Positions 3,057 to 37,082 of a stretch of 37,960 bases of DNA are shown in pieces. Under the pieces are notes generated by a model. It had not been told where the DNA came from. It ran no database searches and saw nothing but the letters and a program-made list of their open reading frames with translations. The translations under genes and the position numbers were made by a program. How positions within the stretch are numbered: position 1 is the first letter of the stretch; each line of letters opens with the position of its first letter. The stretch comes from Bacteroidia bacterium. Lineage in GTDB: Bacteria; Bacteroidota; Bacteroidia; SpSt-205. The DNA is taken from NCBI GenBank assembly GCA_025054525.1, contig JANWZJ010000012.1, positions 1-37,960 on the forward strand, read 5' to 3'.

Positions 3057-3064
3057 TATATTTG
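3057..3064 (+). promoter_or_regulatory. Bacteroidota-type -7 box TATATTTG, 4 nt before sdhC ATG
   Basis: TATATTTG-cagt-ATG. Confidence 0.75.
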
Positions 3065-3068
3065 CAGT

Positions 3069-3743
3069 ATGGCACAGGCAGCTTCCCCAGCAGTAGGATG
3101 GCTTCACACCTCTGTCGGCAGAAAGGTCGTCATGGCTGCTACTGGGATCTTCCTCATGACATTCTTAGTAGTGCATCTCTCGGGTAACCTGTTGCTTCTA
3201 CGAGGGGATAGGGGGGCAGCATTTAATGCTTATGCGGAGTTCATGAGCACCAATCCCTTCATTCGCGTATTGGAGGTCTTACTCTTCTTAGGATTCCTCA
3301 TCCACATCTATCAGGGGCTGTACTTCATCCTCAAAGAAAAACAAGCTCGCCCCCAAAGATATACCCTAAATGCTGCTCATGCCAATACTAGCCTCTTTTC
3401 CCGAACGATGCGCATCAGCGCTGTGGTAGTGCTGGTGTTTCTGATTGTACATATGCGACATTTCTTCGTGGAGCATCGTATTCTTGGCACCTCTCTCACT
3501 ATGTATGAGTCATGCAAGATTGCATTTGAGAACCCTCTTTATTCCGCCTTCTATCTATTCAGCTTTCTGCTGTTGGGCTTTCATTTAGTGCACGGATTTT
3601 ATAGTAGCTTTCAGACTTTAGGGGTTATCCTAAATGCCCGAGTAGAGCGCTTAATCCGTACTGTAGGCATAGCCTTCACGGTATTCATCACTGTCGGATT
3701 TAGCGCTATTCCTATTTACTTCTTGGCAGCGAAATATTTTTAA
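3069..3743 (+). CDS. sdhC: Succinate dehydrogenase cytochrome b subunit, single-subunit b558 type
   Basis: Five hydrophobic segments, [13 protein letters not shown]-like N-terminus, conserved His; directly upstream of sdhA and sdhB. Confidence 0.9.
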
Positions 3744-3754
3744 AATTCATACCT

Positions 3755-5734
3755 ATGGCAGAGATAGCAACACCAGTAGCACCCTCTGTAGTGCCAGCGC
3801 CCAGCTGGAGAGAAGGCGAGCTGATTCTACAGAATGCTTGTCCTACTGGGGATTTAGAAAAGCGGTGGACGCGCCATAAAGATAATCTGCGCTTGGTAGC
3901 CCCCCATAATAAGCGTAAGTTGGAGATTATCGTAGTAGGTGCGGGTTTGGCAGGGGCTTCGGCGGCTGCTACTTTGGGAGAGTTGGGCTACCGTGTGAAG
4001 GTATTTGTCTATCACAACTCCCCTCGTCGTGCCCATAGCATAGCAGCCCAAGGCGGCATAAACGCCGCAAAAAACTATCGCAATGACGGAGATAGTATAT
4101 GGCGACTCTTCTACGACACTATCAAAGGGGGAGATTTCCGAGCGCGGGAATCTAATGTATATCGTCTGGCAGAAGTCAGCGTCAAGATTATAGATCACTG
4201 CGTAGCCCAAGGGATACCTTTTGCTCGGGAATACGGAGGCTATTTAGACACTCGTTCCTTCGGAGGTGCCCAACTCATGCGAACCTTCTACGCTCGGGGA
4301 CAGACTGGGCAACAGCTTCTCCTTGGAGCTTATGCCGCCCTCCAGCGTCAAGTAGAACTTGGAAATGTACAGGTCTTCTACAATCACGAACTTCTGGATG
4401 TAGTCGTGGAAGAAGGCAAAGCCAAGGGAGTTATCGTAAGAAACCTCATTACAGGACAAATCTCTCGAGTTGCAGCCCATGCCGTGGTTTTAGCTACGGG
4501 GGGTTATGGAAATGCTTATTACCTTTCCACAAATGCCAAAATGTCCAACGCTACGGCTATATGGCGGGCTCACCGACGGGGTGCTTACTTCGGCAATCCC
4601 AGCTTCGTCCAAATCCATCCTACCTGCATTCCCCAATCGGGTGACTATCAGTCTAAGCTCACCCTCATGAGTGAGAGCCTGCGCAACGATGGACGCGTCT
4701 GGGTGCCGCGCAAAAAAGGCGATACGCGTCCACCTCATGAGACTCCTGATTCCGAGAGATGGTATTATCTGGAGGAGTGGTATCCTGCTTTTGGCAATTT
4801 AGTGCCTCGGGATATCGCTTCTCGTGCAGCAAAGCGGGTATGCGATATGGGATATGGGGTAGGCCCCACAGGTAGAGCGGTTTATTTAGATTTCTCGGAT
4901 GCTATTCGTCGCTTTGGCAGGGAAGTCATCTATCAGCGGTATGGTAACCTCTTTGAAATGTATGAAGAAATCACGGGCGAAAGCCCCTGGGAAACCCCTA
5001 TGCGTATATATCCCGCTGTGCATTATACGATGGGGGGGCTCTGGGTTGATTACAATCTTATGACGAATATAGAGGGGCTGTATGCTATTGGAGAAGCTAA
5101 CTTCTCTGACCATGGTGCGAATCGTTTGGGTGCCAGTGCCCTTATGCAAGGATTAGCCGATGGCTACTTTATCCTGCCTTACACGATAGGGCATTATTTA
5201 GCGACACAGCTCACTCAAAAGCTCTCTACGGATACGGCAGCCTTCGCCGATGCGGAAAAGGAAACGCGCCAACGAATAGGCAACCTTCTCAACACTAAAG
5301 GCACTCGTACGGTGGATGAGTTCCACAGAGAACTGGGTAAAATTTTATGGGACCAGTGCGGATTAGCCCGGAATGCAGAAGGCTTGCGCACGGCTATGTC
5401 TCAAATCCGAGAACTGCGAGAGCGTTATTGGAAGGAAGTCAAAGTAGTTGGCACGAATGAAGGCTTCAATCAGACGCTGGAAAAAGCATTACGGGTAGCT
5501 GATTTCTTAGAACTGGGTGAGCTGATGATAATAGATGCTTATCACCGAGAAGAATCCTGCGGATGCCATTTACGAGAGGAGTATCAGACTGAAGAAGGCG
5601 AAGCCCTCCGCAACGACAAAGATTACGCCTATGTGGCTGCCTGGCAATGGCAAGGGGAGAAAGAGCCCCCTGTTCTTCACAAAGAACCTTTGACTTTTGA
5701 GTTTGTTAAACCTACTGTCAGAAGCTATAAATAA
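3755..5734 (+). CDS. sdhA: Succinate dehydrogenase/fumarate reductase flavoprotein subunit
   Basis: [23 protein letters not shown] motif, [42 protein letters not shown]. Confidence 0.95.
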
Positions 5735-5742
5735 CACAGCGT

Positions 5743-6501
5743 ATGCGGTTCACGCTGAGAGTATGGCGGCAAAAAGATGCCAAGTCTCCGGGTCAGTTTG
5801 AAACTTATGAGGTGGATGGCGTACCAGCTGATGCATCCTTCTTAGAGATGTTGGATATTCTGAATGAAAAGCTCATCAAGGAGGGCAAAGAGCCTGTGGC
5901 TTTTGACCATGATTGTCGGGAGGGAATATGTGGCTCCTGTGGTCTATTCATCAATGGCAGAGCGCACGGCCCTCTACCCAACATCACTACTTGTCGGCTC
6001 TACATGCGCCATTTCAAGGATGGGGATACGATTACGATTGAGCCTTTCCGTGCACGTCCTTTCCCAGTAATCAAAGATTTAGTAGTAGATCGCTCGGCGC
6101 TTGATAGGATTATTCAGAAGGGCGGCTATATCTCCGTCAATACTGGAAGTGCCCCCGATGCTAACTCCATTCCCATCGCGAAAGCAGCTGCGGACAGAGC
6201 GTTTGATTATGCGACCTGCATAGGGTGCGGGGCATGTGTAGCTGCTTGTAAGAATGCTTCTGCGATGCTCTTCACCTCAGCGAAAGTGGCGCACCTTGCC
6301 CTGCTACCGCAAGGACAGCCTGAGCGTCGGGAGCGTGTCAAACGCATGGTTGCCCAGATGGATGCAGAAGGCTTCGGACACTGTAGCAATACTGGTGCTT
6401 GTGCCGTGGAGTGCCCTGCGAAGATACCCCTCTCCGCTATTGCCCGCCTTCAAAGGGACTTTATCTGGGCTAATCTCACTCCTGATCCCTACGCCCGCTG
6501 A
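5743..6501 (+). CDS. sdhB: Succinate dehydrogenase/fumarate reductase iron-sulfur subunit
   Basis: [10 protein letters not shown] 2Fe-2S motif and [19 protein letters not shown] / [12 protein letters not shown] clusters. Confidence 0.95.
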
Positions 6502-8689
6502 CAAAGTGCCATCTTAGACTTAGGCGAACCTGCCTCCCCACTTGGTCAGCGTAGAAGCGCATAAGGTCGGGATAAGCTCGGTACCGAACATTCAGCATGT
6601 TGTCGCCTGTGAGACCTATTTGCCATCGTCCCCGCTCGTAAGCTGTCTCTCCTCCTAAGAGGAGAAAACCGCGTGGCGGTCGGCTGTATTCTGCCCGCAG
6701 GTCATAGGGTCTGCGCGAAAAAGTGTAGCCTATCTGCGCCTCTAAGCGAAACCCTTTCTGGCTGAATTTCCCCCGTCCTCTCAAAGAGGGTGGAGGCAAG
6801 AGGGGCATCGGTATCCAAGTGGCTCTCTGATATTGGACGGCGCCCAGCGTAGCCTGACTGATTATCTCGGCTTCCCAAGGACCGCGCCGCCCAAGAAGCC
6901 ACTTCCCTGAGAAGGTCAGCCAACCGGCAGGCGACTGCATATACAAGATAGAGAGCGAGGCTCCCCGCAGAGAAAGTACCGGCTCCCCTAAGGCTTCCCA
7001 TATCCAAGCGGAACTTCCCCACAACCCTAAGCTCGCTTCTGCCCTGGAAGTGATGAAGGTAGAGCGCAGGCACACTACCGGCTCACTACGAAGGTGATTC
7101 CCTCCGATTTCAAATGCACCTTTACCCTGGTGATAGCCGAAGGCATAAAGCTCCGCAGGGTTAGGCGCTCTTCTAATCAGAGCCAGCTTTAGTCGCATCT
7201 CCAACAGTTGCGACAAAAAAAACTTTTTCTCCAGCTCTACGGCTAAGGGCAAGAATAGCCTTCTTACTTCAGGGAGGGGAGTTCCCCCTGTGCGCGGTAC
7301 GACCTGTAGGAAGGCATAATGTACAGCCTCTACGCGTGTGCCTACTTCCCATGTTTTTCTCCTGTACAGCAGCCAAGCTCCTCCCATCTCCCGCCTAAAC
7401 GAAGGAATAAAGTAAGCATATTGCCGCAGGTTTCGCTGGCGTTGAAGGAATACGCACCCTTCTAAGCCTGTGGTGCTCTGGTAGTTAAGATGGAGGAAAT
7501 GGGTGGTGAGCTGAAGATTGAGGGCGATACCAGTGCCTGCGGTGTAGATTCCGACAGCGTCTTGTTCTTCGCGTAGATTGTACTGCCGTCCGTAGGTGAA
7601 ATAAAACGCATGCCGAGCGCTGGGAACATAGCCTATTCGTATCGAGAAGAGTTCGTGGAGGGCATGCTGGAAAGGAGGGAGGAGTTCATAGTGAAACCGA
7701 GAAGGCACTAAGGGACGAGGGCTACGCATCGCTCGTTCCAAGTCGGTAAGATTGCCTACCTGCATGCCCTGAAAAATCCCCAGATCAGCGATATACGAAG
7801 CGTAGAAGGACTGAATGTGCCAGGCGGAGAATACTTTCTGCAGAGCGAAGCTGAAATGGCCTTGTTGGGTGGTCGTACCTGTGAGGAAGTAGTCGGGTGT
7901 GCGAAGGGTGCCCAGCTTGAGAGCGGAGCCTTGCAGACGATAACCCCAGCCCCGTAGGGTGCCGTGGAGTCGCCCACCTATGATTCCCCCTTTACCATTA
8001 GCTATGCCTGTGGAGAGAAATGTTCCTTCCAGGCGATTCTTGGGAAAAGTCGTGGGTAGCGGAAGGGCTATTACTCCACCTAAGGCTTCTGTACCATAGC
8101 GGACAGCATGAGGGCCCATGCGCACTTCTATTACTTCACTGCTGAAAGGGTCTATTTCGGGGGCATGTTCGGCGCCCCACTGCTGCGAGGCTAACGGTTG
8201 CCCCCCTTGCCAATACGCAATACGCGTGCCTTGCAGCCCTTCCAGTATAGGCTTTTGTATCAGCGGTCCTGCATAGGTTACGGCAACTCCCGGCAGTCCC
8301 TGAATCTGACCCACTAAACCCACTTCTGGAGGCTTCATTTGTTCCAAAGGCGCTGCTTCTATGTACCTCTTTCGCTCATCCTCAATAATCGTTGCATTTA
8401 GGCGCATCTTGCCCTCTATGTGAAGGGGCGCCTCTATTGGAAGGCTAAGAGTAGTCTCAGCAATCATAGTCGCTCCGTGCCAGACGCGCAGGGTGTAAGT
8501 GCCTGGACACAGGCTATGGATATGAAAATATCCTAAGCTATCTGCTTTCTCGCGTAGTTTAGGGGGTAATAGTTCTATATCGGCATACGGAAAGGGTACA
8601 TAACCTGCTAATTCGCAAGGCTGCATGCAGGGAGTTTGCCCATACAAAAAACCCCACAGGGTGAGGGCATACCATCTTTTTGCTACTAT
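6476..8689 (-). CDS. TonB-dependent outer membrane receptor; the ORF track starts at a TTG (8716), but promoter spacing and signal peptide suggest a start at 8689
   Basis: Carboxypeptidase-like N-terminal domain, plug domain ([26 protein letters not shown]...[21 protein letters not shown]), beta-barrel end LRLSLRWHF; signal-peptide-like (I)[17 protein letters not shown]. Confidence 0.85.
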
Positions 8690-8693
8690 GTGG

Positions 8694-8701: not shown

Positions 8702-8720
8702 AGCTATTTGAGGCAAGAGT

Positions 8721-8728
8721 TAACTTTG
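8721..8728 (+). promoter_or_regulatory. -7 box TAACTTTG, 4 nt before the GTG of the DUF6580-like gene
   Basis: TAACTTTG-taaa-GTG. Confidence 0.75.
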
Positions 8729-8732
8729 TAAA

Positions 8733-9239
8733 GTGCAAAGACAAATCTGGGCCTGGCTACTGCTGGTGGGGATAGGGGTTGCTGGCAGGCTTCTCCCGCA
8801 TCCGCCTAACTTCACTCCTGTAGAAGCAGTATCCATCTATGGAGGAGCGTGGCTTCAGCCGATTTGGCTAGCGTATGCTACGCCAGTACTGGTGATGGCG
8901 ATTACTGATTTCATTTTAGGCTGGCATAATCTGTGGCCTTTTACTTGGGGGGGAATGGTATTAGGGGCGGTGTTAGGGAGAAACTGGCTGGAGCCGGGGC
9001 GCTGGCGATCGGCCGCTGGACTGGGCCTTCTGCAAAGCACCCTGTTCTTTCTCATCACGAACTTCGGGGTCTGGCTGCAAGGGTATTACGGCTATACAAG
9101 CCAAGGGCTGATTGCTTGTTATATAGCAGCCATTCCTTTCTATCATTATCAAGTGCTGGGTGCGCTTACTTTTAGTACGCTATTCTGGGCAGCTGAATAT
9201 ACCTTTCTTCGCAGGCTCTCGCCGGCTACGGCAAGATGA
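8733..9239 (+). CDS. DUF6580-like integral membrane protein (putative transport)
   Basis: 168 aa, several TM helices; PHPPNFTPVEAVSIYGGAWL N-terminus typical of this family as I recall it. Confidence 0.65.
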   Translation: MQRQIWAWLLLVGIGVAGRLLPHPPNFTPVEAVSIYGGAWLQPIWLAYATPVLVMAITDFILGWHNLWPFTWGGMVLGAVLGRNWLEPGRWRSAAGLGLLQSTLFFLITNFGVWLQGYYGYTSQGLIACYIAAIPFYHYQVLGALTFSTLFWAAEYTFLRRLSPATAR

Positions 9240-9379: not shown

Positions 9380-10012
9380 ATGAGCGAAAAGCCACTGCCC
9401 AAAGAGGGGATTCTCATTATCGGTACGGGTACGCTGGCGCGCTGGGCAGCCCAAATCGCCGAAGCCAGTGGTATGCTCGTATATGGCTTTACGCCTACTC
9501 GTCAGCACCCTCAAAAAGAACAGGAGGATATTTCCATCCTTCCCCCTATCACGCAAGCTCGGATTTATGGATTGATTCGGCGGGGAAAGGCAGGTTATAT
9601 CTTAGGGCTGACAGACCCTGTGATGCGGGAGCGCATGGCCCACCAACTCTTTGAGAAAACCGAGCACGTAGCCTACTCTTGCATTCATCCTAATGTCTTC
9701 ATCTCTCCTCATGCTGAGATAGGAGGGGGGGCTATCATTTTTCCTTATGTAGTGATTGCTTTCCGAGCCAAGGTAGGAGGGTATGTGGTCTTGGAGAGCC
9801 ATAGCTCCGTAGGTGCCGGCGCCCTCATAGAAGATTTCGTCAATATCGGTAGCGGATGTCATATCGGAGAGGAATGTCGCATCAGTTCCTATGTGCGGAT
9901 AGGGCGAGGTAGCGTGTTATACGCGGGAGTGAAAGTAGGAAAGGGCGCCGAAATCCTCCCCGGCAGTGTCGTACGAGAAGATGTGCGTCCTGGCGAAGTG
10001 TACAGCAGTTAG
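9380..10012 (+). CDS. NeuD/PglD-like left-handed beta-helix acyltransferase
   Basis: N-terminal Rossmann-like IIGTGTLARWAAQIAE then hexapeptide repeats (AEIGGGAIIFPYVVIAFRAKVGGYVVLESHSSVGAGALIEDFVNIGSGCHIGE). Confidence 0.8.
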   Translation: MSEKPLPKEGILIIGTGTLARWAAQIAEASGMLVYGFTPTRQHPQKEQEDISILPPITQARIYGLIRRGKAGYILGLTDPVMRERMAHQLFEKTEHVAYSCIHPNVFISPHAEIGGGAIIFPYVVIAFRAKVGGYVVLESHSSVGAGALIEDFVNIGSGCHIGEECRISSYVRIGRGSVLYAGVKVGKGAEILPGSVVREDVRPGEVYSS

Positions 10013-19098: not shown

Positions 19099-20054
19099 TT
19101 CTTTATCTTGAAGTACCAGAGGGTGAGAATAGAAGAGGCAATAATCATCGCCCACGCCAGCGGGTAGCCGTAAGACCATTCTAACTCAGGCATGTCTTTG
19201 AAGTTCATACCATAAATGCTCGCTATGAGGGTAGGTGGCGCAAATACCACAGTAATCACGGCAAAGATACGAATGATGCGATTTTGCTCTAAGTTTAGCA
19301 GGTTCAAGATGGTATTTTGTATGGATTCAAGGCGCTGAAAGCTGAAGCTAATGTGTTCTATCAAGGAAGAGATATCCTTGAGCAAGATGCGGACTATTTC
19401 TCGGGATTTTTCGCCGAGTTTGCCGGAGCGTATGATGAGGGAGAGTACCCTTTGTACATCAAAGAGAGCCTCTCGCAGAAGTATCAAAAACTCTTGTAGT
19501 CTCTGAAGCTGTAGGACTATATCTTGTCTTTCCTCTAAGTTTGCCTCGTGGAGCTGGGAGGAGATTCTATTGATGTACTGGGAAATAAGCTCTATGTTAT
19601 CGGCATCGGCGTCTACGATCTGAGCGAAGATAGCGAGCATAAGCTGAATGGGGGACTCGGTAAGTTCGGGGTCGGAGCGCAGTCGCCGAATGAACTCCTG
19701 AAAAATACGGCTCTCTGAGTTACGAAGGGTAAAAACCTTATCTTGTAGCCAGACGAGAGCGATGTTTTGTTCTACGAGTTCTATGGTTTGGTGGTTGAGG
19801 CGGACCTCCATGAGGCGCAGGCTAATCCGAATCTGCTCATCATCTTCGTGGTAGCGAGAGCTCGTTTCTATTTCGGCGCCTTCTTTACGAGTGGGGAACT
19901 TGAAGCCGTAGTAGTTTTCAATTACCTTGAGCCATTCGGGTGGAAGTTCGCATGCATCCACCCACAAGTAAGGAGAAAGATCAAAGGGAGAAAAGGTTTC
20001 TTGAGAGAGCCACCGGGCTTGGCGATAGGGGCTGAACCGGTAGGCGCGTAACAT
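19089..20054 (-). CDS. corA: CorA-family Mg2+/divalent cation transporter
   Basis: IASIYGMNFKDMPELEWSYGYPLAWAMIIASSILTLWYFKIKKWL (GMN signature, two C-terminal TMs). Confidence 0.92.
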   Translation of the reverse strand: MLRAYRFSPYRQARWLSQETFSPFDLSPYLWVDACELPPEWLKVIENYYGFKFPTRKEGAEIETSSRYHEDDEQIRISLRLMEVRLNHQTIELVEQNIALVWLQDKVFTLRNSESRIFQEFIRRLRSDPELTESPIQLMLAIFAQIVDADADNIELISQYINRISSQLHEANLEERQDIVLQLQRLQEFLILLREALFDVQRVLSLIIRSGKLGEKSREIVRILLKDISSLIEHISFSFQRLESIQNTILNLLNLEQNRIIRIFAVITVVFAPPTLIASIYGMNFKDMPELEWSYGYPLAWAMIIASSILTLWYFKIKKWL

Positions 20055-20058
20055 AGGG

Positions 20059-20066
20059 CAAATTTA
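20059..20066 (-). promoter_or_regulatory. -7 box TAAATTTG, 4 nt before corA ATG
   Basis: Reverse strand TAAATTTG-ccct-ATG, in the short coaE-corA gap. Confidence 0.65.
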
Positions 20067-21467: not shown

Positions 21468-21775
21468 TAGCCCTCAGAGGGCTGAGCATACGAGCGTACA
21501 GCCGCTTTCTCTATGCGAAGGCGTACATTCCGGTCTACCTCCAGCAGGAGTGTATCTTTCTCTATCGCCACAATCTCTCCGTAAATCCCAGAAGTCGTAA
21601 CGACTTTATCTCCTTTTTTGAGGGAGTTGCGAAATTCTTGTTCTTTTTTCTGCTGGCGACGCTGCGGAAGGATTAAGAAGAAGTAAAAAATAGCGAACAT
21701 CCCCAGTAGCAAGACAATCTGCATGATGATAGGTTGTACTGGGGGGCTACCTTGGGCGGTATCTAACCAGAGCAT
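21467..21775 (-). CDS. yajC: Preprotein translocase subunit YajC
   Basis: IFYFFLILPQRRQQKKEQEFRNSLKKGDKVVTTSGIYGEIVAIEKDTLLLEVD. Confidence 0.94.
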   Translation of the reverse strand: MLWLDTAQGSPPVQPIIMQIVLLLGMFAIFYFFLILPQRRQQKKEQEFRNSLKKGDKVVTTSGIYGEIVAIEKDTLLLEVDRNVRLRIEKAAVRSYAQPSEG

Positions 21776-22245
21776 TATTGTTTCGCAGATACGACGGTTC
21801 CTCGGAAGCGCAAAATATGGCTCGGGGGCTCTGTATTAGCCATGACAGTTACGGTTTTCATCTGCTCGCCCACGCGTCCCTGTGAGTCAAAAACTACTTC
21901 TACATAACCTTCGCCGCCAGGGGGAATTGGTTCTTTGGTCCAAGAGGGCACGGTGCAACCGCAGGAAGGTTTCACATCCGTGATTTGGAGAGGTACATTC
22001 CCGGGATTGCGCACTTTGAAGCGATAAGAGGCTTTTTCTCCTTCTCGGATGCGCCCAAAGTCATGTTCCATCTTATCAAATTCTATGCGAGCGGTAGGGG
22101 CTGGAGCTTTTTGCTGAGTGGTGTCGGCAGCAGTTTGCGAGGATTCGGGGCGAGAGGTAGTGCAGCTTATCGCAAATAAAAGGGTGACCACCGCTACGAC
22201 TCTCATGGCACGCAAAAATAGGAACTTCTCAGCGAGTAGTGCCAC
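21775..22245 (-). CDS. DUF1573 domain protein, probable lipoprotein or secreted
   Basis: FDKMEHDFGRIREGEKASYRFKVRNPGNVPLQITDVKPSCGCTVPSWTKEPIPPGG. Confidence 0.88.
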   Translation of the reverse strand: MALLAEKFLFLRAMRVVAVVTLLFAISCTTSRPESSQTAADTTQQKAPAPTARIEFDKMEHDFGRIREGEKASYRFKVRNPGNVPLQITDVKPSCGCTVPSWTKEPIPPGGEGYVEVVFDSQGRVGEQMKTVTVMANTEPPSHILRFRGTVVSAKQ

Positions 22246-22540
22246 GCACCTCGCCCAAAAGCCCTTCTATTTCTAAGAGAAGTTGCTCGGCTTTTTTGTA
22301 CTCATCGGGACGCAGTCCACTCTCCATAAAGGCTTTTTGACGCACCTCTTCATAGGAAGAGGGTGAATCGTCGCTGCCAATCTTAGATTTGAGTGCTTGC
22401 CAGTATTCACTGAGTTTGCGGCGCAAGCGCCGGCGCGTATTTACGCCGCTATCGGGGGCTACGAGAATCCCCACTACCGCTCCCACCGCTACGCCTGCTA
22501 AGAATGCCCAAAAAGCACTACTCCCTCGTCCTTCACTCAT
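22229..22540 (-). CDS. YtxH-like small membrane protein
   Basis: FLAGVAVGAVVGILVAPDSGVNTRRRLRRKLSEYW. Confidence 0.75.
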   Translation of the reverse strand: MSEGRGSSAFWAFLAGVAVGAVVGILVAPDSGVNTRRRLRRKLSEYWQALKSKIGSDDSPSSYEEVRQKAFMESGLRPDEYKKAEQLLLEIEGLLGEVRGTTR

Positions 22541-23199
22541 AGAGGCAAATGTACGACAAAACTGGGCCAGCCTTGCTTACGCAGAAGGTTGCGAAGTCTT
22601 TCGGCTTCCTTTCGGGCGCTGAAGTGCCCTACAAGCACTTTATACCCGTCTCGGGTGCGCCATAGAAACACAGCCTCTTTTAGTTCATTAGAGGCATTTT
22701 GGGCAAGGCTAAGGGCATTCGCTTCGTCCTTGAAGGCACCGATTTGGATAGAGAAGGGGCGCGGAGTTAGAGGTTTGCCTTCGGGGGTGAAGAACGTGTA
22801 TTGAGAGGCTTCTGCAGGCAGTGAGGCGGGAGAGCCGACAACTTCTATATGCACCTGAGCAATACCCTGAGCTATGATGCCTAACTCTCGGGCTGCGCGT
22901 TCCGACAAATCCACAATCCGTCCTACTCGGTGCGGACCGCGATCATTAATGCGCACGATAACGCTGCGTCCAGAACGCTTCTCCGTAACTCGTATCTGCG
23001 TTCCAAAAGGAAGCGTGCGATGAGCAGCCGTCAGGGCATTTCTATCGTACTTTTCACCTGAGGCAGTCCGCCTTCCGTGAAAAGAAGGGGCATAGTATGA
23101 AGCCTCGCCTTCTTCCGTGTAACCTATCTGAGCTAAAAGCTGAGATAAACTCCATGCACTTAGGACAGTTAGTAGAGTGAGCGAATTTATTTGTCCCAT
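22537..23199 (-). CDS. rlpA: RlpA-like septal ring lytic transglycosylase with SPOR domain
   Basis: GEASYYAPSFHGRRTASGEKYDRNALTAAHRTLPFGTQIRVT...VIVRINDRGPHRVGRIVDLS; SPOR-like C-terminus FSIQIGAFKDEANALSLAQ. Confidence 0.92.
   Translation of the reverse strand: MGQINSLTLLTVLSAWSLSQLLAQIGYTEEGEASYYAPSFHGRRTASGEKYDRNALTAAHRTLPFGTQIRVTEKRSGRSVIVRINDRGPHRVGRIVDLSERAARELGIIAQGIAQVHIEVVGSPASLPAEASQYTFFTPEGKPLTPRPFSIQIGAFKDEANALSLAQNASNELKEAVFLWRTRDGYKVLVGHFSARKEAERLRNLLRKQGWPSFVVHLPL
22546..22553 (-). promoter_or_regulatory. Possible internal -7 box TACATTTG, 5 nt before the YtxH-like ATG
   Basis: Reverse strand TACATTTG-cctct-ATG, but it lies inside the rlpA 3' coding sequence (codons V-H-L), so it may be coincidental. 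Confidence 0.35.
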
Positions 23200-27948: not shown

Positions 27949-29518
27949 TAGATGCCGAACCTTTGACTTCCAAGCGCACAAAAGGCACAATAATCTCCTC
28001 TAAGCTGACGCCCCCATGCTGATAGGAGTCTTTATATAGGCGTACGTAGTCGTTGTAGTTGGTAGGATATACTAAGAAGCGGTCTTCCATCGCAAAGAGA
28101 TAAGTAGAACTGGCTGTGGCTCGGGGCAGTTTGCCCTCCTCAGGCTTGCGGATATGAAAAACGCTTTTCTCCTCCTTGTCAAAGCTCAAATTTCGCCCTT
28201 GTTTATAGCGGAGGTTAGTAGTTGTTTCTCGGTCGCCCATGACGCGCACGGGACGCTTGACTTGCACGAAGCCGTGGTCGGTCGTGATAAAGACTTGCGA
28301 TACATATTGGGGGAGAAGCCGAAGTACTTGTAGCACTGCAGAGGTCTCTAACCATGCGCGAGTCGTGGCTCGCAGTCCGATATCGTTGGCAGCGAGTTCT
28401 TTGAGGATGTTCATTTGTACGCGCGTGTGAGCCAATAGGTCTAAAAAGTTAAATATCAAAACGACCACGGAGTTTTGCTGAAGGATTTGAGGCAAGCGCT
28501 GCAGGAGACTGCGGGATTCTTCGGGGCGAAGAACTTTTTCATAGGCTACCTTAGGGGGAAGTTTATGACGGCTCAGAAGGTCCCCGAAAAATTCCTCTTC
28601 AAATAAGTTTTTGCCTCCTTCTTCGTCGTCATCGGCCCAGTAGCGGGGGTAGCGCTGGGCGATTTCCAGTGGGAAAAGCCCTGAAAAAAGACTATTACGC
28701 GCATACTGGGTAGCCGTGGGTAAAATGGAGAAAAAAAGATGTTCTTCTGCTACATAGTAGTAGGGCGCAATCAAACTCTCCAAGACTTTCCACTGGTCGT
28801 ACCGCATGCCATCTATGAGAATCAGTACTACTGCTTCTTTGGGACGACTTCCGATATGGGGCAAGAAGAAGCGAGGCAATACATCGGGTGACAGGGTGGG
28901 GCGCTGCGCAGTATGCACCCATTCTAAGTAGTTTTGGACGAAGAAACGGCAGAAGCGCAGATTCGCTTCGGTGCGCTGGCCATCTAAGATTTCGCGGATT
29001 TCAGAAGCCTCAGACTTTTCTAAAGCAATATCCCAATAGACGAGCTCTTTATAGATAGCGTACCACTCTTCTAAGGTGGGGTCAAAAGCCAGTATCGTAG
29101 CGATGCGCCGAAAGTCTCTTTGATAGTCTAAGTGGGCTTGCTGTTGCTGGAGGATGGCTTTACTGAGTATGCGCCGGCAAGCAGAAAAGAGCTGTTGTGG
29201 TGAAACCGGCTTGATGAGAAAATCAGCAATATCTATGCCCACCGCTGACTCCAACAGGCTCTCTTCTTCATCTTTTGTTACCATGATGACTGGCAGGTGC
29301 GGTTGAAGTTTCTTCACGCGACGGGTTACTTCTATGCCGTCCATGCCGGGCATGTGCTCATCTACGATGAGGAGGTCTATGGGTTGGCGCGTTAGAATAT
29401 CCATCGCTTCACTTGGGTGGCGTGCCGAGAGCACCTCAAATCCCTTCGCTGTGAGATGGAGAATTTGCGGCTCTAAGTGCTCTATCTCATCATCTACCCA
29501 CAAAATCCGGGAACGCAT
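27941..29518 (-). CDS. porX: PorX-type response regulator with C-terminal PglZ domain (T9SS regulator)
   Basis: Receiver ILWVDDEIEHLEPQILHLTAKGFEV...LLIVDEHMPGMDG...IMVTKDEEE...DFLIKPV; PglZ-like VVLILIDGMRYDQWKVLESLIAPYY...QVFITTDHGFVQVKRPVRVMGDRETTTNLRYKQGRNL. Confidence 0.93.
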   Translation of the reverse strand: MRSRILWVDDEIEHLEPQILHLTAKGFEVLSARHPSEAMDILTRQPIDLLIVDEHMPGMDGIEVTRRVKKLQPHLPVIMVTKDEEESLLESAVGIDIADFLIKPVSPQQLFSACRRILSKAILQQQQAHLDYQRDFRRIATILAFDPTLEEWYAIYKELVYWDIALEKSEASEIREILDGQRTEANLRFCRFFVQNYLEWVHTAQRPTLSPDVLPRFFLPHIGSRPKEAVVLILIDGMRYDQWKVLESLIAPYYYVAEEHLFFSILPTATQYARNSLFSGLFPLEIAQRYPRYWADDDEEGGKNLFEEEFFGDLLSRHKLPPKVAYEKVLRPEESRSLLQRLPQILQQNSVVVLIFNFLDLLAHTRVQMNILKELAANDIGLRATTRAWLETSAVLQVLRLLPQYVSQVFITTDHGFVQVKRPVRVMGDRETTTNLRYKQGRNLSFDKEEKSVFHIRKPEEGKLPRATASSTYLFAMEDRFLVYPTNYNDYVRLYKDSYQHGGVSLEEIIVPFVRLEVKGSASNG

Positions 29519-29522
29519 ACCC

Positions 29523-29530
29523 CGAATATA
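29523..29530 (-). promoter_or_regulatory. -7-like box TATATTCG (one mismatch), 4 nt before porX ATG
   Basis: Reverse strand TATATTCG-gggt-ATG. Confidence 0.6.
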
Positions 29531-29543
29531 CGCGAATTCTCTA

Positions 29544-29551
29544 TACTTTTG
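29544..29551 (+). promoter_or_regulatory. -7 box TACTTTTG, 4 nt before the SpoIIE phosphatase ATG
   Basis: TACTTTTG-acta-ATG. Confidence 0.7.
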
Positions 29552-29555
29552 ACTA

Positions 29556-31304
29556 ATGTCCGCGCCGCTGGTGATTGGATGGCTTCCTTCGGCTGCGTCT
29601 TGTGCAAGTTTTTTGTCTCTCCTGCAGGGGGAGATCGGAGAAGCCTCTCTGAAGCTCTTTCGCCGTGCAGAAGAGGCGCACGCCTATGCAGAGAAAAGTA
29701 TTTTGCAGGGAGAAGAACCCTTTCTCTTCTTAGCTCGGCTGCCAGAAGGAGCGGTTTTTTTGGAGGAGCTTCTACGGCGCTGGCCGTTAGCGTATGGGAT
29801 CGGACTATATGAGCAGGAGGGGCAAATCGTCTCTCTGGAAGTCCCGTACCTACCCCTCAAGGCCAGTGCAGACCCTAATACCTTGCGTTTTCATTTACGA
29901 TTGCTACGCCAGCGCTATGAGGAGCGGCTTCAAAGCGAGAAAAAAAACATGCTCCTTTCTGAACTTCATCGCGTATCGCTTTCCCTCACCGCCGAAGTGC
30001 GATTAGAATGGCTCATCTTCAAGCTGCTGCGTATCGTTCTGGATGACAGTCAAGCCCAAGAAGCGATTCTTCTGAGTTATGAGGGGGAGAAACTTCGCCC
30101 TATTGGATATGCAGCGGGTGGCGATCATGCTCCTCGCGCACTGCCTCCGATTCCTTTTCTGGAAGAGAAGCTCTTTTTGCCTCTTTTAGAGTTTGTCGCC
30201 CGATCCCGCGAAAATATCCTCCTCACCGAGGGAATGAGCGATTCCCTGTGGCTTACGCATCCGCAGTGGCTTCGGCTGAATGTACCTTCGCTCCTGTGCC
30301 TACCCCTGGTATTCCAAGGCAAACTCATCGGCATCCTCTATCTCATAGCCCCTAAGACGGACTTTCTGGCTGTGCCCGAACGAATGGAGTTTCTCAAGCT
30401 CATCACGTCTCATGCGGCTATCGCTTTACAAAATGCTACCCTGTACGCTCAAATGGAAGCTAAAGTCCAAGAGCGCACCGCCGAAGTCGTACGCCAAAAA
30501 GAAGAAATAGAGCGCCAGAGTATCCTCCTCAAGCAGCAGAATGAGGATATTTTAGCCAGTCTACGGTATGCTCAGCGAGTGCAGCGTGCTATTTTCCCCT
30601 CTTGGCAGGAGTTCCAGCAGAGCTTTCCCGATAGTTTCCTCTTCTACCAGTCCCGAGAAATGGTAGGTGGAGACTTCTACTGGTTTGCCCAGCGCTTGAG
30701 CAAAGCCATTATTGCGGTCGGAGACTGTACAGGGCATGGTATTCCCGGGGCTTTCATGACCATCATCGCAAACACCCTCCTCAGGCAAATCGTGGAACTG
30801 GAAGGGGTCTTTCGTCCTTCTGAGATATTGTATTTGCTCAATCTGCGTTTGGCAGCGGCGTTGCATCATGAGGATAACCGATATGATCAGTTTCGGGAGG
30901 GGATGGAGTTAGCGCTCTTACAGGTTGATCCCAAGCGGCATAAACTCCTCTATGCCGGCGCAGGACGACCCCTCTACATCGTGCGAGATGGCTGCGGTAC
31001 AGAACTGCGTCCTGATAGGATTACGCTGGGGCTGCCTTGGGTGGGGGATGCACCCGAATTCACCCCACATGCGTATGACCTGCAGCCAGGGGATATGCTC
31101 TATCTTTTTTCTGATGGATTCTCGGATCAGCTCAACCCCGAGGGCAAGCGGTACCAGCTCAAAAGATTTTATGAGCTTCTGCAAGTGATGGCTCAGCACC
31201 CCGCCGAACATCAGTATATCGTATTAGAGGCAGAGTGGAAACGCTGGATGGAAAATACCCGACAGACCGATGACATTATCGTGATAGGGGTGAGGGTGCC
31301 GTAG
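29556..31304 (+). CDS. GAF domain, coiled coil and SpoIIE/PP2C serine phosphatase
   Basis: GAF-like VPSLLCLPLVFQGKLIGILYLIAP; SpoIIE REMVGGDFYWFAQRLSKAIIAVGDCTGHGIPGAFMTIIANTLL...QPGDMLYLFSDGFSDQ...RQTDDIIVIGVRV. Confidence 0.93.
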   Translation: MSAPLVIGWLPSAASCASFLSLLQGEIGEASLKLFRRAEEAHAYAEKSILQGEEPFLFLARLPEGAVFLEELLRRWPLAYGIGLYEQEGQIVSLEVPYLPLKASADPNTLRFHLRLLRQRYEERLQSEKKNMLLSELHRVSLSLTAEVRLEWLIFKLLRIVLDDSQAQEAILLSYEGEKLRPIGYAAGGDHAPRALPPIPFLEEKLFLPLLEFVARSRENILLTEGMSDSLWLTHPQWLRLNVPSLLCLPLVFQGKLIGILYLIAPKTDFLAVPERMEFLKLITSHAAIALQNATLYAQMEAKVQERTAEVVRQKEEIERQSILLKQQNEDILASLRYAQRVQRAIFPSWQEFQQSFPDSFLFYQSREMVGGDFYWFAQRLSKAIIAVGDCTGHGIPGAFMTIIANTLLRQIVELEGVFRPSEILYLLNLRLAAALHHEDNRYDQFREGMELALLQVDPKRHKLLYAGAGRPLYIVRDGCGTELRPDRITLGLPWVGDAPEFTPHAYDLQPGDMLYLFSDGFSDQLNPEGKRYQLKRFYELLQVMAQHPAEHQYIVLEAEWKRWMENTRQTDDIIVIGVRVP

Positions 31305-32014: not shown

Positions 32015-32017
32015 GGC

Positions 32018-32692
32018 TCAGAGAATCCAACCAAAAGCAATGCCGAAGCGAGGTATCGGACGCACCCCTTTTCGTAAAATCAGGTCGCCCACTGGCATTT
32101 TTTCTACGAGGTCAGGGTCAGGGGGGACTAAGGGACCCCACTGATGTAGCGTATATCTTATGCCCATTCCCCAAAATAAATCCACGGCTATTCTCCTGCC
32201 TATTGCGCCTTGAAAGCCTAAGAGTCCATTTATAGAGAGGGCTTGGATAGTTCGCTCGTAGGTTTTAGTCCGCGTAGGAGTTCCGGGCGAATAAAAAGAA
32301 GTATCTATTCCTCCCATGTTTTGATAGTAATACTGATAGCCTAACTGGGCGGAAGCATAAATACCTGTGAGTGTATATTGAGGTTTGTCGGGGGATGCTT
32401 CGGTCAGATATTCACGCCACTCCAAACGAGCTTTGAATCCCCGCTGAGTGTTGTCCTGATAGGGCAGGACCTCAGCTAAGTATCCAAAGACCCATCCTGC
32501 TTCTATTTGCGTGCTATTTTTCCGTGAAACGGGTAATTCCATCGCACCCTGTACTGCAAGCTGAAAAGGGTCCATCAGTGCCAAAGGATAAAGCTTGAAC
32601 ACGGACATGCGGTAAATGGGTACGCGAGAGTCTACCTCCTGCGCCCAAAGATATGTTCCCACACCTGCTATGAGAGCGAAGAGCTTTCTCAT
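32018..32692 (-). CDS. Predicted outer-membrane or secreted protein (signal peptide, beta-rich), unknown family
   Basis: MRKLFALIAGVGTYLWAQ signal; alternating aromatic/polar pattern YTLTGIYASAQLGYQYYYQ; C-terminal IPRFGIAFGWIL. Confidence 0.65.
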   Translation of the reverse strand: MRKLFALIAGVGTYLWAQEVDSRVPIYRMSVFKLYPLALMDPFQLAVQGAMELPVSRKNSTQIEAGWVFGYLAEVLPYQDNTQRGFKARLEWREYLTEASPDKPQYTLTGIYASAQLGYQYYYQNMGGIDTSFYSPGTPTRTKTYERTIQALSINGLLGFQGAIGRRIAVDLFWGMGIRYTLHQWGPLVPPDPDLVEKMPVGDLILRKGVRPIPRFGIAFGWIL

Positions 32693-32697
32693 TCCAC

Positions 32698-32705
32698 CAA
32701 AGATA
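32698..32705 (-). promoter_or_regulatory. -7 box TATCTTTG, 5 nt before the 32692 ATG
   Basis: Reverse strand TATCTTTG-gtgga-ATG. Confidence 0.7.
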
Positions 32706-32715
32706 CGATGAAATT

Positions 32716-33987
32716 CTATGGATGTCCCCAGACTTCTCCTTCGGGCTGGACTTCTGTTATATGGATGGTCAGAAGCTGATTCTCAGTATGGGGCTGGTGC
32801 AGATGGACTCGCAGATAGTTTTCAGTTAGGCCTTCATCGGGAGTTTCTAAGAGGAGGTGAAGTCGATGACCTTTGCAGCTTTCGGCGAAGATGCGCTTTT
32901 TTCGTTGGGAGAGCTCGCGCAGGATTTCACTACGAGCCAGACGCTCACTCCACGGTACGGATTCAGTAAAAGAGGCTGCTGGTGTATTAGGGCGTTCGCT
33001 ATACGGGAAAACATGCAGATAACTAATCGGCAGGTCTGCCAGAAACTTATGCGTTTCTGCAAAGTCCTCGGGTTTCTCTCCAGGAAAGCCTACAATCACA
33101 TCTACCCCTATTCCTGCCAGAGGGAAGCGTTTCCGAATCGCTTCTACTCGGCTGGTATACAGGGCGCGCCGATAACGGCGGCGCATTCGTCCCAAGATTC
33201 GGTCACTTCCACTCTGGAGGGGCAAGTGAAAATGAATAGCCCATCGGGGCGAGTCTTGAATGAAGTCTAAAATAGAGTCGGAAAGTAGATTCGGCTCTAT
33301 AGAAGAGAGGCGAAATCGTAGAACGCTATCAGGAGTATGTTTCTCTAACTTTTGTAGGAGTTCTAAGAAGGAGGCGCCATGCGGCTTGCCATAATCGCCT
33401 AAGTTAATGCCGGTCAGTACGATTTCTCGGTAGCCTTCCTGGGCGATTCGGAGAGCCTGGGTTAAGACGACATCGGGTGGGGCACTGCGGCTCGGACCTC
33501 GCGTTTGCGGTACGATACAAAAACTGCATTTGTAATCGCAGCCATCTTGAACTTTGAGGAAGGCTCGCGTGCGCCCTTCTGCGGAATGAGCAAGCCATGT
33601 CCATTCCCGCTGAAAAGAGACCGAAGGTAACTCGGACTGTTTGCCCGCCAGTAACTGCTGAATCTGCTCGGCTAAAAAGGGCTTCTGGGCGTTTGTAGCC
33701 ACGAGGGAGACGCCGGGCAGCTGAGCCAAACTCACCGCATCCCGCTGTGCGTAGCATCCTGTAACGACCAGCTTAGCTTGGGGGGAGCGCCGATGTACTT
33801 GGCGCAGGAGCTTATGGGCTTTTTTCTCGGCTTGGTGGGTTACGCTACAGGTATTGAGGACATAGACCTCGGCTTCCGCTTCCCAATCGGTAATCGTATG
33901 GCCTGCCTGTACAAGCTGTCGGGCCAAAGTAGCCGTCTCGGTGAAGTTGAGTTTGCAACCCAAGGTGTGGAAGGCAATCCGCGCCAT
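32716..33987 (-). CDS. mtaB: tRNA t6A37 methylthiotransferase MtaB
   Basis: AFHTLGCKLNFTET, NTCSVTHQAEKKAHKLLR, VQDGCDYKCSFCIVPQTRGPSRS, LTGINLGDYG. Confidence 0.93.
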   Translation of the reverse strand: MARIAFHTLGCKLNFTETATLARQLVQAGHTITDWEAEAEVYVLNTCSVTHQAEKKAHKLLRQVHRRSPQAKLVVTGCYAQRDAVSLAQLPGVSLVATNAQKPFLAEQIQQLLAGKQSELPSVSFQREWTWLAHSAEGRTRAFLKVQDGCDYKCSFCIVPQTRGPSRSAPPDVVLTQALRIAQEGYREIVLTGINLGDYGKPHGASFLELLQKLEKHTPDSVLRFRLSSIEPNLLSDSILDFIQDSPRWAIHFHLPLQSGSDRILGRMRRRYRRALYTSRVEAIRKRFPLAGIGVDVIVGFPGEKPEDFAETHKFLADLPISYLHVFPYSERPNTPAASFTESVPWSERLARSEILRELSQRKKRIFAESCKGHRLHLLLETPDEGLTENYLRVHLHQPHTENQLLTIHITEVQPEGEVWGHP

Positions 33988-33988
33988 A

Positions 33989-35383
33989 TCAGCCCATCTG
34001 ACCTGCCGCTCGGAAGAAGGGAATCACATCGCGCACATTGCTCATGCCTGTGAGGAAAAGGAGAAGCCGTTCCAATCCCAGTCCAAATCCGCTATGAGGC
34101 ACCGTGCCAAAGCGGCGCGTGTCTAAGTATCCCTTGTAGGCGAAAAGGTCCATACGGCGTTCTTCCATGCGATTTAGCAGCACTTCATAGCGCTCTTCCC
34201 GCTGAGACCCGCCAATCACTTCTCCTATCCGCGGGAAAAGTACATCAAAAGAAGCGACGGTCTTTCCATCCTCATTTTGGCGCATGTAAAAGGCTTTGAT
34301 GGCTTTGGGGTAGTTATATACAATGATGGGACGACGAGCGTATTCTTCTACCAGGTAGCGCTCATGTTCGGCTTGTAGGTCAGCCCCCCAATATACAGGG
34401 TACTCAAAGCGGCGCCCACTTTTCTCCAAAAGTTCAATCGCCTCCGTGTAAGAGAGACGCAAGAAGGACTCTTTCAGCACATTTTCTATCTGGGTGAGAA
34501 GCTGCGGTTCGTAGCGCTCTGCCAGAAACTGTAGCTCTTCTGAAAAGTGAGCCTGCGTATGGCGAATGATAGAACGCAGAAAATCTTCTGCTAAGTCCAT
34601 CGTCATAGTAAGATCATAGAACGCCATTTCGGGTTCTATCATCCAGAACTCTGCGAGGTGTCGGGGTGTATGCGAGGGTTCGGCTCGGAATGTAGGGCCG
34701 AAGGTGTAGATTTTACCCAGCCCCATCGCGAGCTGCTCCCCCTCTAACTGTCCGCTTACCGTGAGATAAGCTGTGCGCCCAAAAAAGTCTTTCGTGAAGT
34801 CTGTTTCCTGAGGAGACAAGGTAGTTACTCGGAAAAGCTGTCCGGCTCCTTCGCAGTCTGAGGGAGTGAGGATGGGCGTATGCACATAGACGAAACCCTG
34901 TTCTTGAAAGTACTGATGGATGGCGAAGGAAACCCCACTTCGTATGCGGAAGACGGCTTGAAAGGTGCGAGTGCGGGGGCGCAAATGGGCTATCTCCCTC
35001 AGAAACTCTAAAGAGTGTGCTTTCTTCTGGAGGGGATAAACCTCAGGGTCTGCCTGCCCGTAGAGCTGATAGCCTTCTGCCACCAGCTCAAAGGGCTGCG
35101 GACGATTCGGAGTAGCCTGCAAAGTACCCCATACTTCCAAACTACTCCCTGTGTGAAGTTCGCTCTCTATGCGTTCTACGGGGATTTGCTCATGAGCCAT
35201 GACCACTTGAAGCGAGCGAAGGGTGGAGCCGTCATAGAGTTCTACGAAACTTACCTGGCGTGTGGTGCGTCGCGTGCGTATCCAACCCCGAATGATAAGT
35301 TTTTCACCTATGGGGGGACTCTGGAATAGCTCTGCGATGCCGAGATACAGAGTAGGGCTCGGAAGCCCACGGGCTGGCTGCAT
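33989..35383 (-). CDS. asnS: Asparaginyl-tRNA synthetase
   Basis: OB-fold RGWIRTRRTTRQVSFVELYDGST; class II motifs FRAEPSHTPRHLAEFWMIEPEMAF; FGLGLERLLLFLTGMSNVRDVIPF. Confidence 0.94.
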   Translation of the reverse strand: MQPARGLPSPTLYLGIAELFQSPPIGEKLIIRGWIRTRRTTRQVSFVELYDGSTLRSLQVVMAHEQIPVERIESELHTGSSLEVWGTLQATPNRPQPFELVAEGYQLYGQADPEVYPLQKKAHSLEFLREIAHLRPRTRTFQAVFRIRSGVSFAIHQYFQEQGFVYVHTPILTPSDCEGAGQLFRVTTLSPQETDFTKDFFGRTAYLTVSGQLEGEQLAMGLGKIYTFGPTFRAEPSHTPRHLAEFWMIEPEMAFYDLTMTMDLAEDFLRSIIRHTQAHFSEELQFLAERYEPQLLTQIENVLKESFLRLSYTEAIELLEKSGRRFEYPVYWGADLQAEHERYLVEEYARRPIIVYNYPKAIKAFYMRQNEDGKTVASFDVLFPRIGEVIGGSQREERYEVLLNRMEERRMDLFAYKGYLDTRRFGTVPHSGFGLGLERLLLFLTGMSNVRDVIPFFRAAGQMG

Positions 35384-35387
35384 ACTG

Positions 35388-35395
35388 CAAAGGTA
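35388..35395 (-). promoter_or_regulatory. -7 box TACCTTTG, 4 nt before asnS ATG
   Basis: Reverse strand TACCTTTG-cagt-ATG. Confidence 0.75.
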
Positions 35396-35409
35396 AGCTA
35401 AGAAAATTC

Positions 35410-35417
35410 TAACTTTG
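35410..35417 (+). promoter_or_regulatory. -7 box TAACTTTG, 4 nt before the tandem-DUF1573 gene ATG
   Basis: TAACTTTG-tacc-ATG. Confidence 0.75.
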
Positions 35418-35421
35418 TACC

Positions 35422-36531
35422 ATGCGGAGAGCAGGAATAGGGCTTTTCATCTCATCCTGTTTGTGGGCACAAATCGTATTTGATAAGACGGAACATGATT
35501 TCGGCGAAGTAGAAGAAGGCCCCGCTGCAGTTTATACCTTTACTTTCAAGAATACGGGAGACAAGCCAGTGAAACTTACTTCGGTCAAGGCTTCTTGTGG
35601 TTGTACTACCCCGAGTTGGACGCAGGAGGAAGTGCCTCCGGGTGGCACAGGCACTGTCCAAGCGTCGTATGACACCAAAGGGCGCCCCGGCGCTTTCCTC
35701 AAAACTATCACTGTACAGCATAGCGCCAGCGAGACACCGATTGTTCTCACAATCAAGGGTTCAGTCAAGTCCAATAAGCCCGTAGAAAAATATACTGAGG
35801 TAGATGGAGGATTAGGCTGGGTCAAGCGTCGTGAAACCTTCGGGAATGTTAAGTCTACGGAGACCCCCAGCCTTACTTTTGAAGTCAAGAATATCGTCTC
35901 TTATCCAATAGAGTTCAGGGGGTTAGCTGACCCTAAGCCGATGTTCAAAGTATCTTTTCAGCCCACGCGCCTTCTCCCTGGACAAGAGGGTAAGGTGGTT
36001 GTTACGCTGGATGGCAAGGCGGCTCGTGCAGCAGGCTGGAAGCACCAATCGGGATTTTATGAGTTTCTGCGTATTCAGACTACCGATTCCTCTGCCCCCG
36101 AGAAACAGCTCGTTGTGAATGGCTCCTATGAAATTGTTTATACCTCGGAAGAACTTGCAAAAGCCCCCAAAGCTGCATTCTCAGTGATGGAGTTTGATGG
36201 CGGGGAAGTCTTAGAGGGACAAATGGTGGAGTACCGATTCATCGTGCGCAACGAAGGAAAAAGCGACCTTATCATAGAGAGCGTGAAGGCTTCCTGTGGC
36301 TGTACGGCGGTAGAACCCACCGAAAAGGTTCTCAAACCCGGTAAAAGCACAGAAATAGTAGCTCGTTTTGACTCCAAGGGGCGGTCTGGGTTCCAACATA
36401 AGACTATTACCGTGGAGACAAATGATCCCCTCAATCCACGTGCGCTTCTTCATCTCAAGGCGAATGTTGTGAGCACCTCTAACTTTTCTCCTTCTGGCGG
36501 AGCGCCCTTCAATCTCACTCCGAGCTACTGA
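35422..36531 (+). CDS. Secreted protein with two DUF1573-like domains
   Basis: Two copies of FD..EHDFGEV.EG....Y.F..KN.G.....L.SVKASCGCT...PPGG......YDTKGRPG...KTITV; signal peptide-like MRRAGIGLFISSCLWAQ. Confidence 0.9.
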   Translation: MRRAGIGLFISSCLWAQIVFDKTEHDFGEVEEGPAAVYTFTFKNTGDKPVKLTSVKASCGCTTPSWTQEEVPPGGTGTVQASYDTKGRPGAFLKTITVQHSASETPIVLTIKGSVKSNKPVEKYTEVDGGLGWVKRRETFGNVKSTETPSLTFEVKNIVSYPIEFRGLADPKPMFKVSFQPTRLLPGQEGKVVVTLDGKAARAAGWKHQSGFYEFLRIQTTDSSAPEKQLVVNGSYEIVYTSEELAKAPKAAFSVMEFDGGEVLEGQMVEYRFIVRNEGKSDLIIESVKASCGCTAVEPTEKVLKPGKSTEIVARFDSKGRSGFQHKTITVETNDPLNPRALLHLKANVVSTSNFSPSGGAPFNLTPSY

Positions 36532-36593
36532 GGGCTCAGCTTAGTTGCGCGGGAGTAGAGGGTAAAACCCCGCTAAGGCAAACAGAAAAGCAC

Positions 36594-36601
36594 TAACTTT
36601 G
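36594..36601 (+). promoter_or_regulatory. -7 box TAACTTTG, 7 nt before rimP ATG
   Basis: TAACTTTG-tctcaag-ATG. Confidence 0.65.
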
Positions 36602-36608
36602 TCTCAAG

Positions 36609-37082
36609 ATGCAAGTTCTGCGCATGATAGAAAAGCGCCTTCGGGTTTGGGTGACCTCTCAGCTTGCTGAATCTTTCCCGGAGGCATTCCTTGTGGAGAC
36701 TCGCTTGCGTGTGCATCGTAATGCGCCCGAGGTGTCGCTGCGTATAGACACAGATACGGGTTGGACGCTGGATAAGTTTGTGCGCATTCACCTTTTCCTC
36801 AAGGAGCGCATGGAAGGGCTCTCTTGGCTTCCTGAGGGATGCCATTTGAGTGTAGCTTCTCCCAGCTTGGACATGCCCATTAAGGTTCGCCGCCAGTACC
36901 TCCAAAAGCTGGGCAAGCCTCTCCGTGTCTATACCTGGCGGGGTAGATATGTACGGGGAATTTTAGAGAGAGTAAAAGAAGAGGGGATAGAGCTAAGCAC
37001 ACCTTCTCGGAAAATCTACCTGCGTTGGAGCGACATCAAGTTTGCTCGCTTAGAGAGAGAAAAACCTCAATCCCTGAACTAA
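36609..37082 (+). CDS. rimP: Ribosome maturation factor RimP
   Basis: VSPSLDMPIKVRRQYLQKLGKPLRVYTWRGRYVRG-type motif (here VASPSLDMPIKVRRQYLQKLGKPL); directly upstream of nusA. Confidence 0.88.
   Translation: MQVLRMIEKRLRVWVTSQLAESFPEAFLVETRLRVHRNAPEVSLRIDTDTGWTLDKFVRIHLFLKERMEGLSWLPEGCHLSVASPSLDMPIKVRRQYLQKLGKPLRVYTWRGRYVRGILERVKEEGIELSTPSRKIYLRWSDIKFARLEREKPQSLN

Follow-up and report, generated by a model that had tools for sequence, protein, structure and literature searches.

A 37,960-nt stretch of a Bacteroidia genome (NCBI GenBank assembly GCA_025054525.1, contig JANWZJ010000012.1; hereafter the window) comes from a little-known Bacteroidota family with small genomes. In this family the octamer TAnnTTTG, the −7 box of sigma-ABfr promoters, abuts start codons, and leaderless initiation is very probably the family-wide default, with most mRNAs beginning at the start codon or within ∼5 nt before it. 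The case is built on direct observation of the box, its spacing and its conservation across the family, on the absence of leader signals, and on the intact sigma factor and anti-Shine-Dalgarno (anti-SD) sequence of congeners. Leaderless starts had been proposed in an earlier reading of the window from its letters alone (the sequence-only reading).

Two genomes were analyzed most closely: that of the window (G000, a 1.8-Mb draft) and that of a congener (G401, a single-contig genome). Pattern counts cover the whole of G000; its sampled stretches, the window included, amount to ∼0.78 Mb (∼43% of the genome), and the G401 sample is a contiguous 0.8 Mb. Beyond the longest contig, the G000 contigs were taken from the list of N4 hits, a mild bias; the unbiased contiguous stretch of G401 agrees with them. 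Here Nn denotes the number of nucleotides between the end of the box and the start codon. Across the whole G000 genome, TANNTTTG-N4-ATG (TAnnTTTG-N4-ATG) occurs 133 times, against 6 for the reversed pattern. When only boxes upstream of an ATG with an open frame of 60 codons or more were counted, the values from N0 to N10 were 0, 0, 4, 13, 64, 27, 20, 16, 11, 8 and 5 in G000 and 0, 0, 0, 16, 73, 30, 16, 25, 15, 5 and 4 in G401, with baseline thereafter. Both species thus show a peak at N4 and a hard lower edge at N3, the latter as expected of a promoter if its transcript has to include the AUG. The reversed motif was flat across the same spacings, bar one stray value (N9, G401). A set of loci from named genomes, mostly Bacteroidota (asnS neighborhoods; the named set), gave 1 at N4 and no peak, with a broad rise at ∼N20 to N33, the leader length known from experiments. 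A genome-wide spacing histogram set against shuffles and other Bacteroidota had been put forward by the sequence-only reading as its check, and with reversed-motif and other-spacing controls added it yields a sharp, family-specific N4 peak. The near-fixed spacing claimed at the same time is correct as to the peak; the tail reaches N9, so that no single value applies.

The peak is independent of how starts are chosen, because starts from coding score alone, from a mixture model and from protein alignment all show it. Start calls came from a home-made, simple gene finder that misplaced some starts (e.g. sdhC and DUF1573). Starts taken from the coding score alone gave the same spacing peak. In an expectation-maximization mixture model that re-chose starts, one of three scrambled starting motifs returned to TAnnTTTG/N4 and the other two stayed diffuse; weak matches inflate its mixture fractions (67% and 73%; ∼33-38% for controls at first pass), which were not used as estimates. 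Where starts were defined by protein alignment only, in 220 G000-G401 ortholog pairs, 39 of 47 strict boxes in G000 lay at N3-9 and 8 at N10-45, with 45 of 54 and 9 in G401, and 33 of the 220 pairs carried a near box in both genomes.

Divergent neighbors are unambiguous transcript starts, because each must begin its own transcript. At these starts a perfect box at N3-9 was present in 47% (G000) and 67% (G401), and a box with at most one mismatch in 69% and 85%, respectively; the background for divergent starts, from an equally wide interval further upstream, was 5-6%, and the named set gave 3% and 11%. Genes preceded by gaps of 16-59 nt had a perfect box in 47% (G000) and 51% (G401), closely packed genes (gap <16 nt) in 13% and 9%, and same-strand genes with gaps of at least 100 nt in 16% and 28%. 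The earlier claim of a box at most transcription-unit starts is therefore sound for divergent genes and less so for this last class. Long leaders, use of other sigma factors, read-through or small genes that went unrecognized may lie behind the boxless genes of that class. No second hump was seen at leader distances in G000 or G401, where boxes are few. Divergent gaps are short, with medians of 48 bp in G000 and 65 bp in G401, whereas G410, G049 and the named set have medians of 213-317 bp. Same-strand neighbors frequently overlap by 4 nt (61/408 in G000, 54/381 in G401). Such overlaps are much commoner in Actinobacteria than in the Fibrobacteres-Chlorobi-Bacteroidetes (FCB) group (PMC9581028), and in their frequency the window family resembles Actinobacteria.

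The position of the transcription start (+1) can be approached from mapped promoters. The sigma-A box of F. psychrophilum spans −12 to −5 (PMC9723704), and in F. johnsoniae the distance from box to transcription start site (TSS) is 4 or 5 nt (PMC6847099), so at N4 the first nucleotide of the start codon would be +1. On this analogy, +1 would fall on or next to the start codon in N3-N5 genes, leaders would measure ∼1-5 nt across N5-N9 genes, and those of N6-N9 genes are probably ∼2-5 nt. Start codons at N4 were ATG in 122 cases, GTG in 40 and TTG in 3 (3/165); the near-absence of TTG fits a requirement for a purine at +1. The base preceding the N4 start was a pyrimidine in 79% (57/72, G000), and among N6-N12 genes of G000 a purine stood at box+5 in 77% (p = 4e-5).

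The mixture model converges, also from one scrambled start, on the sigma-ABfr −7 box TAnnTTTG, and an AT-rich tract lies upstream of the box at −15 to −21. The sequence-only reading had seen no −33 partner, and this was borne out for the window species: TTTG stood at −35 in 1/151 boxes of G000, against 7/43 in named Bacteroidota. The −33 element is also weak in F. johnsoniae (PMC6847099), so −33 TTTG is not strictly defining for sigma-ABfr promoters. In G401 a weak TTTG was seen at −38 instead of −35 (6 vs 0.6 expected), with none in G000. A short-type primary sigma factor (beginning MRQLKI) is present in one copy each in G401, G398 and G406; it was not found in G000, an incomplete assembly. 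No change in the sigma factor is evident; its DNA-binding regions closely resemble those of other Bacteroidota, with slight divergence beyond region 4.2.

Leader signals for translation are missing. Shine-Dalgarno-like 4-mers at −17 to −4 occurred in 8% (G000) and 6% (G401) of transcript-first genes, with no excess over upstream background. Nor was there an A-rich leader signal in first genes, A standing at −3 in 0.25 (G000) and 0.13 (G401) and at −6 in 0.15 and 0.10, compared with 0.34 and 0.37 in named Bacteroidota; this absence would follow if the mRNAs do not extend to these positions. Changes in the ribosome were considered as well. The 16S 3′ tail of G401, reached by pattern search where Rfam gave no 16S hit because of masking of the rRNA gene body (L160/L161, G401:C1 ∼792391), reads GGATTACCTCCTTTCT, and its intact anti-SD core CCTCC rules out an altered anti-SD in that genome. 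Loss of bS21 is ruled out by its presence in 12/13 genomes of the order.

The signal is a property of the family. All 12 family genomes, from two genera, had the N4 pattern at 7.7-95x control, and their ratio of N4 to N24 counts was 5.2-12.7, against a median of 0.99 in 48 other families with one representative each. The sister family, the only other family of the order, showed little excess (50 vs 39 control for G407, whole-genome; the G407 sample was drawn from contigs picked for N4 hits, its N4 count is biased upward, and only the whole-genome count was used). Most genomes in a sample of 395 other Bacteroidota had little or no excess. Outside the order and within the same class, three families stood out, with N4/N24 ratios of 6.4 on small numbers (G415, f65), 4.3 (G422, f72) and 2.3 (G441, f91). 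The last has the largest absolute excess, and its histogram combines an N4-N5 peak with many longer leaders, so that G441 looks mixed. The partial N4 enrichment in f65, f72 and f91 suggests repeated or graded shifts to leaderless starts.

Single loci show the same conservation. A perfect box precedes asnS in 11/11 family genomes with an asnS locus, at N4 (8), N5 (1) or N7 (2), even though N-termini of the protein differ in length and conservation is not visible in the remaining upstream DNA; no start-adjacent asnS box was found in the sister family. At rpsU, which encodes bS21, the box lies at N5-N7 in 9/9 readable family genomes, one with a mismatch (loci L215 and L217-L224), and none was found in the sister family. 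The rpsU spacer is often pyrimidine-rich (CCCCCC, CGCCCC or CGCCCT). In F. johnsoniae rpsU retains a strong Shine-Dalgarno sequence for autoregulation (PMC10783764); this Flavobacterium-type arrangement was not seen in the family rpsU loci.

Within the window the following start-adjacent boxes were recorded.

3057..3071, + strand: TATATTTG-N4-ATG, sdhC, succinate dehydrogenase cytochrome subunit (Pfam Sdh_cyt)
8721..8735, + strand: TAACTTTG-N4-GTG, DUF6580 gene
20052..20066, − strand: TAAATTTG-N4-ATG, corA
22204..22220, − strand: TATTTTTG-N6-ATG, small gene 21775-22206
22538..22553, − strand: TACATTTG-N5-ATG, YtxH-like gene (start 22540), box within the upstream open reading frame
29516..29530, − strand: TATATTCG-N4-ATG, one mismatch, porX (NCBIfam T9SS_RR_PorX)
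29544..29558, + strand: TACTTTTG-N4-ATG, GAF/SpoIIE phosphatase gene
32690..32705, − strand: TATCTTTG-N5-ATG, 224-aa gene 32018-32692
35381..35395, − strand: TACCTTTG-N4-ATG, asnS
35410..35424, + strand: TAACTTTG-N4-ATG, DUF1573 gene
36594..36611, + strand: TAACTTTG-N7-ATG, rimP-like gene upstream of nusA

The nine boxes quoted by the sequence-only reading are all present at the spacings it gave (N4 for sdhC, DUF6580, corA, porX, SpoIIE, asnS and DUF1573, N5 for the 32692 gene, N7 for rimP). The list was correct and incomplete, having overlooked 22540(−) at N5 and 22206(−) at N6. It had also named four starts without a good box, and rightly so: no box precedes 2881(−), 25018(−) or 25061(+), and at 9380(+) there is just GAACTTTG-N8. 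The bare octamer occurs 30 times in the window vs 17.9 expected, a weak over-representation (1/100 shuffles as high); the signal of the window is box-to-start spacing rather than octamer count. Two divergent regions, porX/SpoIIE (29516-29558; 37 bp) and asnS/DUF1573 (35381-35424; 38 bp), each hold two back-to-back start-adjacent boxes as unusually compact double promoters. The 224-aa protein encoded at 32018-32692 (−), with its own start-adjacent box, had no match in Pfam or NCBIfam.

Four other explanations were weighed. The box might be a translation signal read on the mRNA, with no promoter element involved; it does lie close to starts, where ribosome signals are found. However, closely packed operon-internal genes, which need translation as well, are mostly boxless (9-13% vs 47-67% of divergent genes), the box is identical to the mapped sigma-ABfr −7 box with the AT-rich tract upstream, and the family retains a sigma-ABfr-type factor, so that we consider this explanation extremely improbable. 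Equally improbable is an annotation effect, in which starts were placed too far upstream and the true leaders are longer. The gene finder does misplace some starts, sdhC and DUF1573 among them, but homology-defined starts give the same peak, the genome-wide pattern count is independent of gene calls, and the asnS box shifts with the start as the N-terminus changes in length.

A closer competitor is that leaders are short and not absent, offset initiation giving most mRNAs 1-6 nt onto which 30S subunits still load. About half of the N3-N9 boxes belong to N5-N9 genes, rpsU is conserved at N5-N7, and the box-to-TSS distance is borrowed from Flavobacterium, all of which would suit such leaders. 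The distribution, however, peaks near its minimum, with no peak at intermediate length, and TTG, which would need U at +1, is nearly absent at N4; we give short leaders little probability. It is also unlikely, if somewhat less so, that the arrangement is a by-product of compaction, in which shrinking intergenic DNA left promoters beside starts with no functional preference. This concerns origin and is compatible with a leaderless default. The small divergent gaps and frequent 4-nt overlaps fit it, but divergent gaps of at least 150 nt are still boxed at N3-9, genes with a near box outnumbering those with only a far one by 15 to 2 in G401 and 9 to 8 in G000.

Several observations weigh against a leaderless default. 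No box within one mismatch was found at ∼30% (G000) and 15% (G401) of divergent starts, or at most same-strand genes with gaps of at least 100 nt; start calls rest on the home-made gene finder; and G401 has a weaker purine preference at box+5 (61%, p = 0.12). Box genes of G000 and G401 also have no less structure in their first 40 nt than in later coding windows, and slightly more if anything. The idea that leaderless genes avoid 5′ structure is unsupported by this comparison, and the lack of reduced structure departs from the usual picture for starts without a Shine-Dalgarno sequence. The earlier claim of a leaderless default for the lineage thus stands as to the family-wide N4 peak and the predicted +1, and is to be narrowed in that only N3-N5 genes would be strictly or almost leaderless and a minority of starts are boxless.

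For the leaderless default we propose the following mechanism, in which we infer three elements: where exactly +1 lies, how the ribosome enters, and translational coupling. The boxes would serve the housekeeping sigma factor of Bacteroidota (sigma-ABfr type) as −7 elements and, in this family, would have been moved up against the start codon. For most mRNAs, RNA polymerase would start at the initial purine (A or G) of the start codon (N3-N5) or at most ∼5 nt ahead of it (N6-N9), and ribosomes would initiate on the 5′-terminal AUG or GUG with neither a Shine-Dalgarno sequence nor the A-rich leader that other Bacteroidota use. Within operons, ribosomes would mostly reach genes through translational coupling where neighboring ends overlap or abut. 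A bolder version, which we regard as possible and rather doubtful, is that recognition of the 5′-terminal AUG has become practically the only de novo start of translation, internal genes being reached by coupling; that the family has abandoned both the Shine-Dalgarno sequence and the A-rich leader and no longer has the Shine-Dalgarno-based autoregulation seen for rpsU in Flavobacterium, with CCUCC and bS21 kept; and that milder versions arose separately in f65, f72 and f91.

The boxed family together with its sister family of little excess is well suited to the study of how initiation mode can change within a lineage that keeps its anti-SD. In practice, the box allows gene starts to be located with single-base precision, and some starts of the window family may be set wrongly by gene finders that expect Shine-Dalgarno or A-rich leaders. 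The mechanism and the box were already known; their lineage-wide deployment in a Bacteroidota family would be new. Actinobacteria and archaea are known to have leaderless genes in which a core promoter box adjoins the open reading frame (ORF). Like the window family, actinobacterial and mycobacterial leaderless genes have ATG and GTG starts and frequent 4-nt gene overlaps. Those lineages also use Shine-Dalgarno leaders, of which none were seen in the window family. In Deinococcus-Thermus, a −10 motif carried next to ∼30% of ORFs makes leaderless mRNA, as verified experimentally (PMC12340547). There, too, a core promoter element abuts the ORF and no −35 element is needed; phylum, sigma factor and box differ (TANNNT vs TAnnTTTG), and the trait predicted here from sequence reaches its greatest strength in a single family, the window family, of a phylum whose mRNAs are leadered.

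For Bacteroidota, our search of the open-access literature found no report of a lineage with a leaderless default. A survey classed 2.4% of genes as leaderless in 1/37 Bacteroidetes/Chlorobi genomes (PMC3160421), a low figure for which a search confined to Pribnow-type boxes is one likely reason; an 'AT-rich RBS' (ribosome-binding site) class has been described for the phylum (PMC9581028), and more leaderless genes have been suspected there (PMC5397173). The A-rich, Kozak-like initiation of Bacteroidota, characterized by A at −3 and −6 (and at −12/−13), shares with the window family the disuse of Shine-Dalgarno sequences though 16S rRNA keeps CCUCC, and differs in its A enrichment at −3 and −6, absent from the window family. 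The mRNAs of Bacteroides and Flavobacterium sigma-ABfr promoters have median leaders of 24-32 nt, with 5.5% leaderless in F. psychrophilum and 3.7% of leaders <10 nt in B. thetaiotaomicron (PMC6847099, PMC7366714, PMC9723704). Their leadered mRNAs, and the −33 TTTG missing in the window species, set these promoters apart, whereas the TAnnTTTG −7 box, the AT-rich tract at −15 to −21 and the sigma type are the same.

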